Shown: one piece after another, positions 39,201 to 53,303 of the stretch
Layout: each line of letters opens with the position of its first letter
Position numbering within the stretch: the stretch's first letter is position 1
Assembly: GCF_004365655.1 (NCBI RefSeq)
Contig: NZ_SOEO01000001.1
Coordinates: 1,240,001 to 1,304,000, forward strand
Direction of reading: 5' to 3'
Length of the DNA stretch: 64,000 bases
Source of the DNA: Epilithonimonas xixisoli
GTDB taxonomy: Bacteria; Bacteroidota; Bacteroidia; Flavobacteriales; Weeksellaceae
Position numbers and translations under genes: made by a program
Notes under the pieces: model-generated
Seen by the model: only the letters and a program-made list of their open reading frames with translations
The model's database searches: none
Told to the model about the DNA's origin: nothing

Positions 39201-40298
39201 TTATCTCGCAAAAATCTCTTTTAACTGAGAAACGATATTGCTGTTTCCGGAAACTGTGATGTCACCGATTTTGTCGGCAATTTTTTCCATATATTCCATT
39301 TCTTTTAATTTCCACAACGTTTCGTTTTCTTCCATCAATTTTGCAGTGTTGAGCAAACTTCTTGTGGAAGCCGTTTCTTCACGACGCATAATGCTGTTGG
39401 CCTGCGCTTTTTTCTCGGCAATCAAGACTTGGTTCATAATTTCTTTCATTTCGCCAGTCAAAATTACATCCCGGATTCCCGCGTCAGAAGCTTTCAAACC
39501 TAAGTCATCGGCTTTTCCACCCAAATTTTCCAAGATTTCTTTGCCAACAGAATCTTTTTTAATTAATAATTCATCCAAAGTCAAGGCTCCAACGAATTCT
39601 CGCAATGCCAATTGCATCAAAATATACAATTGTTTATCGTATTCTTTGTTGTTCATCAAGGCCTTTACCACGTTTTCCACTTGGTAACGCACGTAAAAAT
39701 TGATTCGCAACATCGCTTTATCTTTCGTCAACAATTCTTGTCCGGCGATTTCCATTTGTTGCATTCTCGTGTCGATGGCTTTCACTTCGATGGAAGTTTC
39801 GTTGTTCCAAAAGTAGAGCGTTCCGGATTCCAAAACTTGGGTCAATTTACCGTCAATCAACAACAAACCTTTGTATTGATTGGTAATCACAAACTTTCTG
39901 ACGAAGGTTTTCAACTTCACATTTTCCAAAATTGTTTTAGAAATATTCTCTGTGATTTCAACTTTCGTTAAATCTACTTTTTGAAATTCTCTGTTCACAA
40001 TTCCTTTCCAGAAAGCGTATTGACCGACATTTAAAACGTCTTTGAAAATTCCGTTTTCATGAACCAAAACAATTTCGCCATCTTTCACTTCAACAACTTC
40101 TATCATTGAAGCCAAGTTTTGATTTTTCAACAAAAGATTCAAATCTTCTCCTGTTTTGAACTGGGATTTCATTTCAAAAATTTCTACAGATTTGTTTCCG
40201 AAAAGCCAGTAATTACCTTCTTTCAAAATCTCAATCAAGTTTCCGTTTTTGAAAACCAAACCTACTTGATATGCTTTAATTTGTACATTTTTAATCAT
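39201..40298 (-). CDS. Slipin/SPFH domain protein
   Basis: 365-aa SPFH (stomatin/prohibitin/flotillin) family member. The SPFH core reads LTKDKAMLRINFYVRYQVEN, then REFVGALTLDELLIKKDSVG and LGLKASDAGIRDVILTGEMK. A C-terminal coiled coil (AEKKAQANSIMRREETASTR, then SLLNTAKLMEENETLWKLKE) follows. The usual N-terminal membrane hairpin is replaced by two tandem beta-rich repeats (YQVGLVFKNGNLIEILKEGN and KGLLLIDGKLTQVLESGT). This form is typical of slipins in this phylum, and it may be peripheral rather than integral. It probably assembles into ring-like membrane microdomain scaffolds. No NfeD protease partner is adjacent. Confidence 0.88.
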   Translation of the reverse strand: MIKNVQIKAYQVGLVFKNGNLIEILKEGNYWLFGNKSVEIFEMKSQFKTGEDLNLLLKNQNLASMIEVVEVKDGEIVLVHENGIFKDVLNVGQYAFWKGIVNREFQKVDLTKVEITENISKTILENVKLKTFVRKFVITNQYKGLLLIDGKLTQVLESGTLYFWNNETSIEVKAIDTRMQQMEIAGQELLTKDKAMLRINFYVRYQVENVVKALMNNKEYDKQLYILMQLALREFVGALTLDELLIKKDSVGKEILENLGGKADDLGLKASDAGIRDVILTGEMKEIMNQVLIAEKKAQANSIMRREETASTRSLLNTAKLMEENETLWKLKEMEYMEKIADKIGDITVSGNSNIVSQLKEIFAR

Positions 40299-40676
40299 TC
40301 TATTTTATTTTTATGTTTTATTAAATATTATAAAAAAAGGAAATTCTGAAATTCTCTCATCCAAAAAATAGCGGAAGAAAAGCGGTTCAGAAAAAATCTG
40401 TTTATTTCAAAACTTGATATCAAATTTGATTTTTAACGCTTTGATTTTTAATGTTAACTTCATTGATGCAAAAGCAAAAAACAAGTTGTTCATTTTAAAA
40501 TCTCCGTTTAAAAATATAGATTCAACGACCAATTGTTTATCAAACTAAACTTTATCTTTTCAAAATCATCTTTTCTTGCAAGCTTCTTCAAATTGTTGAT
40601 TCAACAACCGAAAAAACCTCAGAATTTTCCTATTGGAAATGTTTTTATTAATGAGAAAACATTTAAAAAACTCGAC
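40299..40676. other. Gene-free AT-rich region
   Basis: About 380 bases between the SPFH gene and the first tRNA-like element. I see no ORF with coding character, no hairpin with a U run and no clear promoter box, apart from long A/T runs. Confidence 0.5.
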
Positions 40677-40756
40677 TGTCGGATACAGATTTTGAGCCTG
40701 TTTCCAAAAACCTACGTTAAAAGCGTAGTGCTCTGACCAACTGAGCTACATCACCC
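40677..40756 (-). tRNA. tRNA-Lys(TTT)-like, degenerate
   Basis: The minus strand has a normal D arm (TAGCTCAGTTGGTCAGAGCA) and a perfect anticodon arm CTACG-CTTTTAA-CGTAG with anticodon TTT. The variable region is about 10 bases, and the T arm is ACAGG-CTCAAAA-TCTGT, without the TTCGA core. The acceptor strands GGGTGAT and ATCCGAC pair at only four of seven positions. It looks like a decaying or highly divergent tRNA. Confidence 0.45.
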
Positions 40757-40757
40757 T

Positions 40758-40820
40758 GAAGTGAAGACGGGAATCGAACCCGCGCATAAAAATCTATTGC
40801 TATACCGTTTAGCTACTGTT
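40758..40820 (-). tRNA. tRNA-like relic with normal D and T arms
   Basis: D arm GCTA-AACGGTA-TAGC and T arm GCGGG-TTCGATT-CCCGT are sound. The anticodon arm is shortened (ATA ... TAT with about 6 loop bases around GATTTT) and the acceptor strands do not pair. The anticodon cannot be assigned. Confidence 0.35.
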
Positions 40821-40906
40821 CAAAAACAGGAAGGATTCGAACCTTCATACCTAGACATTGGGAAGTTTTTTGGAAAACTTCTAAACCTTCAAATCAAGCT
40901 GAACAG
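40820..40906 (-). tRNA. tRNA-Trp(CCA)-like, degenerate
   Basis: A canonical T arm GAAGG-TTCGAAT-CCTTC is preceded by an enlarged anticodon region whose stem GAAGT/ACTTC encloses TTTCCAAAAA, containing CCA. The variable region is about 15 bases. CTGTTC at the 5' end pairs with GAACAG at the 3' end, but eight extra bases separate the T arm from that strand. GAACAG also abuts the D arm of the next element, so the two overlap. Confidence 0.3.
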
Positions 40907-41114
40907 AAATGGATAATGTTTCTCAACAAACCCTTCTGCAATGGCGATATACCGAAACGCTCAACGTGACCTGTCTGATATTTTGACTAAGATTTATTGC
41001 TAAATTTTAGTGTTATTTCTAATTGATGATGCAAAGTAAAACCCAAAGTGCGCAATCAATTTGCGTAGATTAGAATTTATTATTGTAAGTGGGAAAATTT
41101 TCCGTTTCCTTTCT

Positions 41115-41429
41115 TTATCCCATCAGATGCACCACCACCTGAACTTGTTTCTCCGGATTTTCGTTTGGAGAAATCCTTTGAATGGTTATTTTGAGGTTTT
41201 TCTTTAGTCCTACTTTCAACATTTTGTGGAAAATTCTGTTTTCAGTTCTTGGGATAAAACCGATTTTGCTTTTCTCATAATAAATTGCCACGGCTTTTGC
41301 ATCGTATTTATTGTTTTCTTCTAATTTCAACTTCAGTTGAGAACCGATTTTGAGTTTGCTGAAAATGCTAGCTCCTTCATAGTAGGTAAATCCCGCGACA
41401 TTGAAATTGGTTAGGTATTCTGTTTTCAT
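41115..41429 (-). CDS. HIRAN-domain protein inside the tRNA array
   Basis: 104-aa protein consisting almost only of a HIRAN domain, the OB-like module that binds single-stranded DNA 3' ends in HLTF/Rad5 and also occurs as small stand-alone bacterial proteins. Signature parts are FTYYEGASIFSKLKIGSQLK, NNKYDAKAVAIYYEKSKIGF and IPRTENRIFHKMLKVG. No helicase or nuclease domain is attached. The ATG at 41429 follows an AT-rich 50-base gap after the tRNA-Leu-like gene. Its position inside a tRNA array is unusual. Function here is unknown; DNA end binding is inferred from the family. Confidence 0.82.
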   Translation of the reverse strand: MKTEYLTNFNVAGFTYYEGASIFSKLKIGSQLKLKLEENNKYDAKAVAIYYEKSKIGFIPRTENRIFHKMLKVGLKKNLKITIQRISPNENPEKQVQVVVHLMG

Positions 41430-41481
41430 ATTGAAAGTTTTTTAATATTAATAATTGGCGAATTCTCATTCACAAAATTGT

Positions 41482-41555
41482 ACGGAGAGAGGGAGTCGAA
41501 CCCTCAATTTCTTGAGCCTAAATCAAGTGCGTCTGCCAGTTCCGCCATCTCCGCA
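41482..41555 (-). tRNA. tRNA-Leu(TAG) lacking the long variable arm
   Basis: Acceptor GCGGAGA pairs with TCTCCGT (one G-U), and the discriminator is A. The D arm is leucine-like (GGCGGAACTGGCAGACGC). The anticodon arm CTTGA-TTTAGGC-TCAAG carries TAG, and the T arm is GAGGG-TTCGACT-CCCTC. Only five bases (AAATT) lie between the anticodon and T stems. Bacterial leucine tRNAs are class II and carry a stem-loop of about 10-20 bases there. All other parts look intact. Confidence 0.75.
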
Positions 41556-41641
41556 GGTTTTGGTTAATAAGTTTTACTTTTAACTATTTAAAAATTTGCT
41601 GATTCATCAGGATTGTTCATTATCTTTTTATTTTATTCATT

Positions 41642-41720
41642 GTATTCACGAATGCTTTGCATTTCGAACCTGAACTCCAAGAATCAAAATCTTGTGTGCT
41701 GACCAATTACAGTATGAATC
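41642..41720 (-). tRNA. tRNA-Gln(TTG)-like with an enlarged T-arm region
   Basis: The anticodon arm CAAGA-TTTTGAT-TCTTG is perfect with anticodon TTG. The D region CTGTAATTGGTCAGCAC matches glutamine tRNAs. The acceptor GATTCAT/GTGAATA pairs at six of seven positions, including one wobble. The T region is about 23 bases instead of 17: CAGGTTCGAA is followed by a second hairpin AATGC-AAA-GCATT. Confidence 0.5.
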
Positions 41721-41828
41721 AATGTGAAGAAAAACAAAGCCTGTCTTTAATTTTTGGTTTGATATATGAACTTCTTCGCTCGACAAACTTTTCTTTTTCT
41801 TCGGAACTAATCTCATTTTAGTTATTTG

Positions 41829-41910
41829 AGATGGCTATGGGATTTGAACCCACTCAGTTTTCACAACGGTGTTGCAGACCGCCCCGACTCTCCCACTTCG
41901 GCGAACCATC
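41829..41910 (-). tRNA. tRNA-Cys(GCA)-like with a 12-base variable region
   Basis: The acceptor GATGGTT/AGCCATC is complete (one wobble). The anticodon arm GCGGT-CTGCAAC-ACCGT carries GCA and the T arm is GTGGG-TTCAAAT-CCCAT. The variable region is about 12 bases, more than the 4-5 of standard cysteine tRNAs. The D arm (GCCGAAGTGGGAGAGTCGG) is irregular. Confidence 0.6.
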
Positions 41911-42067
41911 AGATTTATAAATGATAATTGATAATCGATTTTCATTTAAATTTTAATTTCGAGTTAAGAAAAAGTCCGTCTATTGTAATTTGTGTTTTGT
42001 ATAAAGAACTCCTGCTCTTGACAAACCTTTTCTTTCTCTCTTTGAAACAATTAACATTAATTAATTG

Positions 42068-42140
42068 TGATTCCGACAGGATTCGAACCTGTAACTTTAG
42101 GTTTAGAAAACCTATACTCTATCCGTTGAGTTACGAAATC
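42068..42140 (-). tRNA. tRNA-Arg(TCT)
   Basis: Full cloverleaf: acceptor GATTTCG/CGGAATC, D stem ACTC/GAGT, anticodon arm TAGGT-TTTCTAA-ACCTA (TCT), 5-base variable loop, T arm ACAGG-TTCGAAT-CCTGT, discriminator A. CCA is not encoded. Confidence 0.88.
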
Positions 42141-42145
42141 TATTG

Positions 42146-42217
42146 CACTCCATAAGGGAATCGAACCCTTGTCGTTCGGTAGAAAGCCGAACGCACTAAC
42201 CTCTATGCTAATGGAGC
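42146..42217 (-). tRNA. tRNA-Glu(TTC)
   Basis: Full cloverleaf: acceptor GCTCCAT/ATGGAGT (G-U at the end), D stem GCAT/GTGC, anticodon arm TTCGG-CTTTCTA-CCGAA (TTC), T arm AAGGG-TTCGATT-CCCTT, discriminator G. It lies 5 bases from tRNA-Arg. Confidence 0.88.
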
Positions 42218-42223
42218 AAATTG

Positions 42224-42295
42224 TCTGGAAAGCAAGATTCGAACTTGCGACCTCCCGCGTCCAAGACGGGTAAACAACCACCGTTATCTTTCCAG
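42224..42295 (-). tRNA. tRNA-Pro(TGG)
   Basis: Acceptor CTGGAAA/TTTCCAG is perfect. The anticodon arm CCCGT-CTTGGAC-GCGGG carries TGG, the T arm is GCAAG-TTCGAAT-CTTGC and the discriminator is A. The D arm is weak, with about three pairs (AAC/GTT). The C1-G72 end fits proline tRNAs. It lies 6 bases from tRNA-Glu. Confidence 0.82.
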
Positions 42296-42300
42296 TTTTC

Positions 42301-42360
42301 AGATTCACTTCAAAGTTCTTTTCCGAGAGACAGTCGGAGCCAAATTTTTTCCGTGAATCT
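42301..42360 (-). tRNA. Minimal tRNA-Asp(GTC)-like element without D and T arms
   Basis: 60 bases bounded by a perfect 8-bp acceptor-like stem (AGATTCAC / GTGAATCT, ends exactly at 42360 and 42301). It contains a perfect anticodon arm TCCGA-CTGTCTC-TCGGA (42322-42338) with anticodon GTC, T33 and a 7-base loop. The D-side linker is 14 bases with no stem and the T-side linker 13 bases. It is spaced like its neighbours in the array (5 and 3 bases). It could be an armless tRNA, a decoy or a deletion relic. Confidence 0.5.
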
Positions 42361-42363
42361 TTG

Positions 42364-42438
42364 TAATCCCAGAAAGAATCGAACTTTCAACCCCCAGGTT
42401 TAAAAGACTGGTGCTCTAACCAATTGAGCTATGAGATT
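42364..42438 (-). tRNA. tRNA-Lys(TTT) with a bulge in the anticodon stem
   Basis: Acceptor AATCTCA/TGGGATT (one wobble), D arm TAGCTCAATTGGTTAGAGCA, T arm GAAAG-TTCGATT-CTTTC and discriminator A are all sound. The anticodon loop CTTTTAA gives TTT. The 3' side of the anticodon stem carries one extra C (CCAGT versus ACCTGG). Confidence 0.78.
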
Positions 42439-42448
42439 TTATAACTTT

Positions 42449-42521
42449 GGGTATCTTCGGGAATCGAACCCTGTTCTCCGGTGCCACAAACCGGCGCTTT
42501 ACCAAATAAGCTAAAGAAACC
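42449..42521 (-). tRNA. tRNA-His(GTG), T stem weakened
   Basis: The anticodon arm CCGGT-TTGTGGC-ACCGG carries GTG and the D stem is GCTT/AAGC. The acceptor GGTTTCT/AGATACC pairs at six of seven, with discriminator C as in histidine tRNAs. Only three T-stem pairs remain around TTCGATT, and the base before position 1 is T, not the G-1 typical of tRNA-His. It is the first element of the array in the direction of transcription. Confidence 0.75.
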
Positions 42522-42527
42522 ATAAAA

Positions 42528-42552
42528 AAAGCGCCTCTTCTTGGGAGGCGCT
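42528..42552 (-). terminator. Terminator between the small ORF and the tRNA array
   Basis: AGCGCCTC pairs with GAGGCGCT, followed leftward by seven U. It overlaps no gene: the small ORF's stop is directly beside it, and the tRNA-His 5' end is 6 bases past the U run. Confidence 0.8.
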
Positions 42553-42702
42553 CTATATTTTTTGACGTGTCAGTTCGTTAGCTGACCCATTATATAAGCA
42601 CCTTTTCTCCACAAATTCACTTCCTAGAATATATACCAATCCTTTCGGCTCCTGTCCGTTTAGTTTTGAATATTGATTAGCTATGTGATGTAATTGTTTC
42701 AT
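42553..42702 (-). CDS. Small ORF of 49 aa before the tRNA array
   Basis: Unrecognised. It reads MKQLHHIANQYSKLNGQE, then PKGLVYILGSEFVEKRCLYN and a short polar tail. Support for being real is contextual. A promoter-like pair (TTTG, 20-base spacer, TTACTTTG) lies 70-100 bases upstream, and a strong terminator begins at the base next to the stop codon. There is no signal peptide or membrane segment. It could instead be a leader peptide for the tRNA array or a non-coding RNA that happens to be open. No clear ribosome-binding site is seen, which is common in this phylum. Confidence 0.4.
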   Translation of the reverse strand: MKQLHHIANQYSKLNGQEPKGLVYILGSEFVEKRCLYNGSANELTRQKI

Positions 42703-42771
42703 TATATTCTTGTTGTTTTAAAAATGTCTTTTTTGAAAAATTGAAAAGTTGTTGCTTTCAATTTTCGGTTG

Positions 42772-42803
42772 CAAAGTAAATATGAATTTTTCGAATTCAC
42801 AAA
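42772..42803 (-). promoter_or_regulatory. Promoter of the small ORF / tRNA array
   Basis: On the minus strand TTTG (42800-42803), 20 bases, then TTACTTTG (42772-42779), close to the TTTG-N17-23-TANNTTTG consensus. It is the nearest promoter-like site upstream of the array. Confidence 0.5.
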
Positions 42804-43033
42804 TCTATTTTTTAATTAAATTATTGATTATCAATCAATTATGATTTAAATTGAAAATAAGAAAATCCTGTCCGTAATATTTTACAGATATCGATTTTAC
42901 CTAAATGACTGTCTCTCATTGGTTTTCCTATCACGTCTTATTTTCTAATTATTTGTTCATTGTTGATTAAATTATTTTCACTTTTATGGTTATTTTATTT
43001 CATTCTAAATAATTTCGACCTTAAAAACACAAA

Positions 43034-43058
43034 AAACGCCCCGATTATCGAGGCGTTT
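43034..43058. terminator. Terminator beyond the 42-aa small ORF
   Basis: AAACGCC pairs with GGCGTTT and the inner CGAT with ATCG. A runs on the left give a U-rich tail leftward. It lies 30 bases past the small ORF stop at 43089. Confidence 0.85.
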
Positions 43059-43088
43059 CTGCAGTATTTTGATTAAATTTTTACGAGT

Positions 43089-43217
43089 TTACAGTAAATA
43101 ATTTTCAAAGCAAGTACATTTCGCCTCATTCCATATCATCCATTCGTATCCGAATAGTCCCTTTGGTGAAGGGCTATCGCATAGATTTACATTGATATGT
43201 GCTCTTTGTATTATCAT
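43089..43217 (-). CDS. Small ORF of 42 aa
   Basis: Unrecognised. It begins MIIQRAHINVNLCDSPSPKG and continues LFGYEWMIWNEAKCTCFENY, with three Cys and two Trp, no signal peptide. A perfect TATCTTTG -7 box ends only 13 bases before the ATG, so the mRNA would have a very short leader. A strong terminator follows the stop by 30 bases. Promoter, ORF and terminator form a complete small transcription unit. The alternative is a small RNA, because the leader is too short for normal ribosome loading. Confidence 0.38.
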   Translation of the reverse strand: MIIQRAHINVNLCDSPSPKGLFGYEWMIWNEAKCTCFENYLL

Positions 43218-43230
43218 AATTTTTCTGGGG

Positions 43231-43238
43231 CAAAGATA
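43231..43238 (-). promoter_or_regulatory. -7 box for the 42-aa small ORF
   Basis: Minus-strand TATCTTTG, a perfect TANNTTTG match. No TTTG at the ideal -33 distance. Confidence 0.5.
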
Positions 43239-43527
43239 AATTTTATTCTTTAAATATTTAAAATCAAGACATTAAAAGCTTGATAAAATTGATATTTTTA
43301 GATTAATGAAAATTTGGAAATTAGAATTTTTAATATTAAAACGTCAAAAAAAATTATTGACGCTGTGACCTCAGCAGTTAATTTCTCGAATACTTTTGTA
43401 GAAGATCTAAACAAGCTTGCTTCTATTGTTTTATTTTAAATTAGACTTCAAATGTTAATCAGTATAACTTTACGATTTAGAAATAAAAAGAAGATAACTA
43501 CATCTTAAATTACACTTATAAAATGAA

Positions 43528-43552
43528 TAAACCTTGTTTTGGACAAGGTTTA
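43528..43552 (-). terminator. Terminator of the histone H1-like gene
   Basis: TAAACCTTG pairs with CAAGGTTTA around a 7-base loop, 16 bases past the stop of the leftward gene. Confidence 0.8.
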
Positions 43553-43567
43553 TTTTTTGATAAATCA

Positions 43568-43744
43568 TTATGCTTTCGATGAGTCCAAAGATTCTTTTCT
43601 AAACTCTTTCAATAGTTTTTCAAGAATCAAAGAAGCTTTACGAGCTCTTGTTCCCGCTGCCTTGTTCGACTTTTCTGATTGCAATTCTGCATCAGCTTTG
43701 AAAGCATTAAATTCCGTGTTGATTTTTTCGATGAGTTCGTTCAT
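43568..43744 (-). CDS. Histone H1-like DNA-binding protein (Hc1 type)
   Basis: 58-aa basic, helical protein of the bacterial histone H1-like (Hc1) family found across Flavobacteriia, thought to bind and compact DNA. The sequence begins MNELIEKINTEFNAFKADAE and includes the conserved KAAGTRARKASLILEKLL, ending RKESLDSSKA. It is shorter than 60 codons, so it is easily missed by automated ORF calling. The reverse strand carries a spurious 73-codon ORF. A TATTTTTG -7 box at 43771-43778 and the hairpin at 43528 define a single-gene transcript. The family match is by recognition of the TRARKAS core. Confidence 0.85.
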   Translation of the reverse strand: MNELIEKINTEFNAFKADAELQSEKSNKAAGTRARKASLILEKLLKEFRKESLDSSKA

Positions 43745-53229: not shown

Positions 53230-53303
53230 TGACTTCGAAGGGATTCGAACCCCCAACCCTCGGAGCCGAAATCCGATATTCTATCCAGTTGAACTACGAA
53301 GCC
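53230..53303 (-). tRNA. tRNA-Arg(TCG)
   Basis: Acceptor GGCTTCG/CGAAGTC (one wobble), D arm TAGTTCAACTGGATAGAATA, anticodon arm TCGGA-TTTCGGC-TCCGA (TCG), T arm GGGGG-TTCGAAT-CCCTT, discriminator A, no encoded CCA. It starts 8 bases after the stop of the outer-membrane barrel gene, so it is probably processed from that transcript. Confidence 0.93.

Follow-up and report, generated by a model that had tools for sequence, protein, structure and literature searches.

A chromosomal tRNA array joined to a slipin gene in Epilithonimonas xixisoli: the putative RNA half of a tRNA-damage response cassette

In a 64,000-nucleotide stretch of the Epilithonimonas xixisoli genome (positions 1,240,001 to 1,304,000 of contig NZ_SOEO01000001.1, assembly GCF_004365655.1; hereafter, the window), the minus strand carries an array of tRNA and tRNA-like genes at 40677-42521. 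It forms the upstream portion of a cassette on the chromosome and represents neither a phage array nor decay. The cassette runs from a leader and a terminator through the tRNA array (followed in the window by a HIRAN gene) and a large structured RNA to the gene of an SPFH/Band-7 protein, slipin. Both the cassette and its link to RNA repair are well supported. The reading that we favour, with a probability of roughly 55%, is that the array and the structured RNA would make up the RNA component of a slipin (SPFH/Band-7) cassette that responds to tRNA damage, supplying spare tRNAs, baits and a scaffold, a division of labour that is our inference.

The window slipin (365 amino acids; 39201-40298, minus strand) matches PF01145 (E 3e-27). 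Ten of 118 relatives (E <= 1e-30) and 44 of 395 genomes of the order (E <= 1e-60) carry a homolog, which makes 48 distinct genomes, and the surroundings of the gene were read in all of them, some stretches ending early at contig ends. All 138 tRNAs that ARAGORN called within 6 kilobases (kb) of slipin lie upstream of it (275,621 bases) and on its strand; the opposite strand there and the downstream side (256,342 bases) have none. After the removal of four pieces of the structured RNA and one housekeeping tRNA-Arg(tcg), 133 array tRNAs remained in 26 of the 48 loci, with at least two tRNAs in 20 loci, at least four in 16, at least five in 13 and at least ten in four; single tRNAs (e.g. in loci L078 and L139) may also be ordinary genes, and the array counts are lower bounds because ARAGORN misses damaged members. 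Arrays at a distance of 7-10 kb upstream of slipin are present in another three loci (14 tRNAs in L116, six in L114 and two in L111). Arrays of this type recur beside slipin in many Flavobacteriales chromosomes, and in genome G722, which represents another family and is not among the 48, the structured RNA, slipin and tRNAs again occur together, with a tRNA-Ile and a tRNA-Cys called by ARAGORN and a Tyr-like Rfam match upstream of slipin. The recurrence in other genera, along with the Rfam E-values, argues that the array is not due to chance.

The structured RNA (40660-40986, minus strand) lies just upstream of slipin, and the left end of the array (40677-40850), taken for decayed tRNA copies in an earlier note on this DNA, is in fact a part of it. 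It was recognized by an anchor motif, by covariation and by a covariance model, R1, which was built on its 5' part and scores 148 bits at the window copy (this copy being included in the model). The anchor (a 17-base motif for which up to six mismatches were allowed, followed by a T arm) is present in 47 of the 48 slipin loci, with 0-2 mismatches in most of them, six in L109 and five in L139; the remaining locus, L145, shows similar modules by eye. A 5' domain is followed by two permuted tRNA modules, an anticodon arm (CTACG-CTTTTAA-CGTAG in the window) and a second anticodon-like hairpin (ACAGG-CTCAAAA-TCTGT). The succession of a T arm, a closed acceptor hairpin and a D arm, which is then repeated, is the order of circularly permuted tRNAs and, since it leaves no free acceptor end, the modules are presumably not chargeable. 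In an alignment of 33 of the 47 sequences (A1, which left out 14 divergent ones), 67 pairs form 12 helices, and 55 of these pairs show changes on both sides. Paired cells amount to 96.0% versus 75.8% in shuffles, and double-change cells to 489 versus 152.7, with the structure derived from the same alignment that was used for counting; when the partners are slid by 1-3 columns, pairing is 41-49%. At the gathering level of Rfam 15, no family but tRNA was detected at the structured RNA in the window and seven loci. Applied to 395 genomes of the phylum, R1 gave 23 matches at E <= 0.001, and all 14 strong ones (56 bits or more) have slipin in the fetched locus, 13 of them coming from the 48 genomes and G722 being new. 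The nine weak matches (28-31 bits) were taken as chance, with no slipin in their roughly 3-kb loci; R1 gave no hit on the C. piscicola locus L032 and no convincing match on enterobacterial and Subdoligranulum loci. In several loci (L109-L113, L116), the interval from the structured RNA to slipin also contains an element, GCGTGAGCGATGGTAACGGATATCC...GGGACAC, perhaps a repeat insertion.

The anticodon arm of the structured RNA has five pairs and a seven-base loop in 30 of the 33 aligned sequences (the arms of L079, L114 and L115, which lack five pairs, were set aside, and the remaining 30 mix several stem types). U33 is present in 29 of the 30, 13 anticodons occur, and the entropy is highest at positions 34-36 (1.95, 1.53 and 1.51 bits), compared with 0.21 bits at position 33 and no more than 1.30 within the 5' stem. 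The control based on shuffles that keep base composition only gave a mean of 0.37 and a maximum of 3 in 200, versus 27 observed. The stem CTACR (CTACA or CTACG) is common to the sequences of 17 species, and yet they display 11 anticodons: TTT in six (the window included), ACG in two, and TCA, AGG, TAG, ATA, AAG, CAA, CAT, GTA and GTT in one each. The second anticodon-like hairpin (window loop CTCAAAA) is found in many loci under a filter that demanded U33 and a purine at 37. These changing anticodons lend themselves to a bolder interpretation, which we put forward only tentatively, namely a dedicated anticodon-display system where a slipin-bound permuted-tRNA RNA, its anticodon swapped from species to species with the arm and U33 retained, rod-like hairpins that each show one anticodon and replacement tRNAs with rewritten anticodon loops would bait, sense and outlast anticodon nucleases, and where the displayed anticodons might record the nucleases met by a lineage.

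Within the array, ARAGORN called seven minus-strand tRNAs (41480-42521), and all features given below are on this strand. At the gathering level of Rfam, RF00005 matched six of the seven, two stretches within 40687-40822 and, at 53230 of the window, an unrelated tRNA-Arg; the seventh, tRNA-Cys, was matched in a finer scan (36.6 bits). The leftward array described in the earlier note, with about twelve members, is real and comprises these seven tRNAs and two tRNA-like elements recognized by eye; its left-end copies belong to the structured RNA, and the HIRAN gene (41115-41429) also lies inside the interval. The five clear tRNAs of that note, for Arg(TCT), Glu(TTC), Pro(TGG), Lys(TTT) and His(GTG), are true tRNAs by both ARAGORN and RF00005. 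From the upstream end, the array begins with tRNA-His(GTG) (42449-42521; its T stem looks weak by eye, a trait common to array His genes in the alignment) and tRNA-Lys(TTT) (42363-42438; reported by ARAGORN as '???' ttta), which has a one-base bulge in the anticodon stem of the window copy only. It continues with an Asp-like element (42299-42363), tRNA-Pro(TGG) with a divergent D arm and A37 (42223-42295), tRNA-Glu(TTC) with U37 (42145-42217), tRNA-Arg(TCT) (42067-42140; RF00005, 69.8 bits), a spacer hairpin (41960-42040), tRNA-Cys(GCA) of 83 nucleotides (41828-41910), a second spacer hairpin (41718-41805), a tRNA-Gln(TTG)-like gene (about 41643-41722) and tRNA-Leu(TAG) of 75 nucleotides (41480-41554). 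The packing at 3-10 bases holds for His-Lys (10 bases), Pro-Glu (5) and Glu-Arg (4), but the remaining gaps are wider or occupied by the Asp-like element.

The abnormal architectures reported for the Cys, Gln, Leu and Asp-like members were also seen, with the qualifications that in Leu the oddity is the loss of the long variable arm and that the window Lys is odd as well. The Asp-like element, here called mini-Asp, is a rod hairpin located between Lys and Pro: an 8-bp acceptor-like helix and an AU-rich helix carry a perfect Asp anticodon arm (TCCGA-CTGTCTC-TCGGA) without a D or T arm. It occurs in five genomes representing five species (the window, L108, L115, L116 and L125), and in L116 it adjoins a full-size Asp gene. 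The window copy folds at -16.8 kcal/mol (z -2.57), and the four of the five sequences that were folded gave z of -2.57, -2.85, -2.37 and -1.79 (the alignment of the five, A3, has one misplaced indel). In the Gln-like gene the T arm is swapped for another hairpin, an alteration common to the window and L112, and the 83-nucleotide form of tRNA-Cys, with its enlarged variable region, is found in three other loci. The two spacer hairpins look alike (z -4.82 for the first and -3.86 for the second). A spacer pattern matched the second and eight copies in five other loci, did not match the first, and gave one stray match inside a gene elsewhere in the window. Copies related to the second hairpin lie between array tRNAs in L109, L112, L115, L116 and L125, with a conserved interior GCGCAGAAGTTCTTATATCAAAC; this repeated hairpin is possibly a processing signal or a separate RNA.

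The array is redundant to the housekeeping tRNA set of the host, as judged by the RF00005 scan and the isoacceptor comparison: the genome has at least 47 RF00005 matches, nine of them in the array (150 of 291 first-look candidates were scored), and for each isoacceptor of the window array an ordinary gene exists elsewhere in the genome. By alignment, the isotype families of array tRNAs cross genera and are distinct from the housekeeping genes of the window genome, to which the window array tRNAs are 63-72% identical when the same isoacceptors are compared. Isotypes and loops were counted in 141 raw ARAGORN tRNAs from 31 loci, within a 7-kb limit from slipin (the four structured-RNA pieces and the housekeeping Arg are thus among them), and the housekeeping comparison refers to the window genome only, except for Asp (12 genomes). 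Array Leu(tag) is 74-75 nucleotides long in 13 of 13 cases and Leu(taa) 75 in two of two, the long variable arm being absent in all 15, whereas housekeeping Leu tRNAs measure 83-84 (83 for Leu(tag)). Position 37 is unlike that of the housekeeping gene in Asp (U in 14/14), Pro (A in 13/13), Gln (A in 9/9) and Arg(acg) (A in 5/5), and the same as in the housekeeping gene in Lys, Arg(tct) and Asn. For the first four isotypes, the anticodon loop is thus changed relative to host-type tRNAs, as nuclease evasion would demand. Housekeeping Asp has the loop CTGTCAC in 22 of 22 genes (22 of the 29 hits being Asp genes) from 12 of the 13 genomes with array Asp (five genera, the window's excluded), and in the window array Asp is represented by mini-Asp alone.

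The isotypes are also skewed: among the 141 there are 14 Asp, 13 Leu(tag), 13 Pro, 12 His, 12 Tyr and nine Gln; Ala, Val, Thr and Met are absent. The anticodons that combine a purine at 35 with a pyrimidine at 36 (Ala, Val, Thr, Met, Ile) are nearly missing, with one Ile(tat) among the 141; elsewhere, one Ile(gat) lies farther upstream in L116 and one Ile(tat) in G722. The 63-72% identity and the missing arms are what a graveyard of decaying, functionless tRNA genes would also offer, but the odd forms recur between species, the large RNA shows compensatory changes and the orientation to slipin is fixed. Decay was accordingly rejected on the first two grounds, and this explanation is disfavoured to the point of being hardly credible.

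The earlier note had regarded the array as typical of phages and integrative elements. Such an origin was rejected after a comparison of the array and slipin with phage records, PHROGs and PADLOC: none of 50,697 phage records matches slipin, which has no PHROG either, and no integrase or virion gene was named among the scanned proteins around the array (a subset of the window's open reading frames). The comparison with phage tRNAs brought up 67 phage records; among the matches listed, all are single tRNA-sized pieces (55-96 nucleotides, 75-86%) covering at most 7% of the query. It is true that the multi-isotype packing resembles phage arrays, that single phage tRNAs reach 85% among the matches listed, that five of ten neighbouring proteins (HIRAN included) match PHROGs of unknown function, and that the patchy distribution of slipin (four of 23 genomes of the genus) suggests horizontal transfer. 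The same cassette is nevertheless found on many chromosomes, and a phage or integrative-element tRNA cluster is strongly disfavoured, with very little probability left to it. The flanking antiporter and TonB-receptor genes were mapped in genomes of the genus (19/23 and 11/23, respectively) and no clean empty site was found; by the listed places the two genes are not neighbours elsewhere, and in genome G013 the TonB gene is about 26 kb beyond slipin.

The gene company of slipin points to RNA repair. Within 6 kb of it, among the 48 loci and with reference proteins named by Pfam, RtcB is found in 13, a WYL protein in 13, a metallophosphoesterase in 15, an RlaP-type nucleotidyltransferase in three, HIRAN in three, and a T4-type RNA ligase with PNKP in one; two RtcB loci have large arrays (11 tRNAs in L133 and 13 in L136). 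In the window itself no RNA-repair gene stands beside slipin, but RtcB, RlaP and a WYL regulator are encoded within about 9 kb of each other, about 266 kb from the array. Single slipin loci that were examined also encode RNase H-like, RNase T, cyclic-phosphate receiver (cREC), RLIG1, RF-1 (PrfH-like) and TPR proteins by Pfam. In a Citrobacter plasmid record, a slipin-nucleotidyltransferase pair is located beside rtcR, the RNA-repair activator gene, and in the 448-base gap a T arm and, after it, an acceptor hairpin can be made out by eye. In this rtcR-slipin gap (L182, 5553-6000) the hairpin is preceded by what we take to be a sigma-54-like promoter motif, which suggests that RtcR, the activator tied to tRNA damage, may exert control here. 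The pair recurs with a similar element in an E. coli record, where no rtcR is annotated in the stretch.

An opposite emphasis would be that the structured RNA and the array serve as binding platforms or sensors only (similar to Y RNAs), through which slipin, HIRAN and exonucleases control an RNA-repair response. The structured RNA does not depend on the presence of an array (it occurs in 47 loci, and array tRNAs lie within 6 kb in 26), its T-arm/D-arm part gives weak matches to the YrlA model, and RNase T and RNase H-like proteins are present in some loci. The many isotypes and the preserved cloverleafs of the array would, however, remain unexplained, and we regard a purely regulatory role as unlikely.

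Two leaders precede the array. Leader RNA 1 (43032-43245, minus strand) has a -7 box TATCTTTG, a 42-codon open reading frame (43089-43217) and a terminator hairpin (43060-43032), and it is found in 11 distinct loci (the window, L032 of C. piscicola, L063, L074, L075, L079, L108, L109, L112, L115 and L125). Leader 2 (42525-42785, minus strand) has a -7 box TTTACTTTG, a 49-codon open reading frame (42553-42702) and a terminator-like hairpin (42554-42528) immediately ahead of the first tRNA. Both -7 boxes presumably belong to promoters of the Bacteroidota type. A terminator scan of 40000-43600 gave eight sites versus 1.7 in shuffles, some being tRNA-like arms or the same hairpin on the opposite strand. 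This arrangement suggests a conditional read-through of the terminator into the array. The reading frame of leader 1 (~42 codons, NLCDSPxxKGLFG-like in many loci) overlaps a hairpin that is followed by the terminator and, as it is broken by eye in L079 and L075, the leader may act as an RNA rather than through a peptide.

A number of observations weigh against the interpretation preferred here. Array Glu has U37 in six of six cases, but so does one of the two housekeeping Glu genes; the loops of Lys, Arg(tct), Asn and several other array tRNAs are equal or nearly equal to the housekeeping loop, so altered loops are not general. As array tRNAs are absent within 6 kb in 22 of the 48 slipin loci (and from the whole examined stretch in 19), the array is an optional part of the cassette. 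G722 also has a tRNA-Leu about 2 kb downstream of slipin, and R1 does not recognize the enterobacterial element (10.9 bits, E 0.39). Of 15 HIRAN loci scanned in other genomes only L035 has tRNAs, and ten wider HIRAN loci showed tRNAs in L063 and scattered ones in L067 and L068; HIRAN is thus not generally tied to tRNAs. Finally, full acceptor stems in 117 and full T stems in 123 of the 141 array tRNAs are in better agreement with working tRNAs than with baits. The seven acceptor pairs and five T-stem pairs kept in most of them would suit a stress-induced backup operon that adds decoding capacity in the manner of the Anabaena L-array, the oddities being drift in rarely used genes, and the Anabaena operon is reported to aid survival under translation antibiotics (PMC10272220). 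Such a reserve for translation is nonetheless rather doubtful in our estimate, given that the oddities of each isotype are found again in other genera, that mini-Asp is no normal tRNA and that the isotype set is skewed.

The window HIRAN protein mentioned above is a stand-alone domain of 104 amino acids (41115-41429, minus strand; PF08797, E 7e-15) and matches the PADLOC candidate defence family PDC-M03B (E 2e-19). The one close relative found in named genomes is that of C. piscicola (88%), whose locus L032 has the leader and HIRAN and no ARAGORN tRNA in 16 kb. Downstream of slipin, a TerD-family gene is present in L109 (one protein scanned), with look-alikes by eye in L108, L112 and L115.

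Toxins, defence systems and competitors commonly use tRNA cleavage as a weapon. In the tRNA-damage response that we favour, a stress that cuts tRNAs or stalls translation would allow transcription past the terminator ahead of the array. Spare tRNAs would then be made of the isotypes attacked by anticodon nucleases, several of them with altered loops or bodies that might be poorly cut, while hairpins such as mini-Asp, presenting an anticodon arm but unusable as tRNAs, would occupy the nuclease. The tRNA-mimicking scaffold RNA, made together with slipin and putatively bound by it, could gather damaged tRNAs or nucleases, and RtcB with its partners, encoded elsewhere in the window genome, would repair the gathered tRNAs. 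The earlier suggestion that the array provides decoys or replacements against anticodon nucleases gains indirect support, at the level of sequence, from the altered loops, the rod-like Asp hairpin, the changing anticodons and the company of RNA-repair genes. If true, the cassette would be a chromosomal counterpart, joined to RNA-repair machinery, of the altered tRNAs with which phages are proposed to answer such cleavage. It would reveal a way in which bacteria defend their own tRNAs, and slipin, which is a widespread scaffold protein, would gain an RNA partner of a concrete kind. Since every tRNA of the window array has a housekeeping twin for comparison, the claim lends itself to a direct test.

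Among known systems, the closest in composition may be the SPFH/Band-7 RNA-repair modules for which Burroughs and Aravind in 2016 reportedly noted, in the abstract, a 'novel tRNA-like molecule'. The likeness extends to the Band-7 protein (the window slipin matches PF01145) and a cognate tRNA-like RNA, which lies next to the Band-7 gene (anchor in 47 of 48 loci, with covariation); RNA-repair gene company is seen in a part of the homologous loci (RtcB within 6 kb in 13 of 48), the RtcB gene of the window genome lying about 266 kb away. To our knowledge, that account does not include tRNA arrays with altered loops, the mini-Asp hairpin or changing anticodons. Among the papers listed for Band-7 or slipin with tRNA-like RNA, RtcB or tRNA arrays, the titles and abstract openings mention neither slipin-joined arrays nor altered array loops, mini-Asp or changing anticodons. 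The YrlA and other bacterial Y RNAs of rsr-yrlBA-rtcBA operons (RF02553; PMC7790460) resemble the structured RNA in having a T arm followed by a D arm, in mimicking a permuted tRNA and in their RNA-repair setting. However, the partner gene here is slipin rather than Ro60/Rsr and anticodon arms are present; membership in the YrlA family was ruled out, as RF02553 scores 29.7-30.4 bits at the structured RNA versus a gathering score of 69.

Phage tRNA arrays share with the window array the many isotypes and the altered anticodon loops, which in phage tRNAs have been proposed to provide an escape from anticodon nucleases (PMC10264068); the window array differs in residing on a host chromosome within an RNA-repair cassette. 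The Anabaena trn/L-array is likewise a redundant set of tRNAs in one operon, which is regulated together with rtcB and a slipin gene and induced by translation stress (PMC10272220; PMC9938897). The operon of 26 tRNAs, rtcB and the slipin gene are derepressed in a trcR mutant and upregulated under chloramphenicol (PMC10272220); these genes also changed in a complemented strain under erythromycin selection, which the authors name as a possible cause (PMC9938897). In Anabaena, however, the 26 tRNAs are on a megaplasmid, rtcB is on the chromosome and the slipin gene (alr0740) is elsewhere, all under TrcR control, whereas the array of the window cassette follows a terminator, is directly linked to slipin and contains hairpins that are not tRNAs. 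Overall, the Anabaena data and the proposal for phage loops, taken together, are in line with a response to tRNA damage in which replacement tRNAs and anticodon baits would act beside a scaffold bound by slipin.

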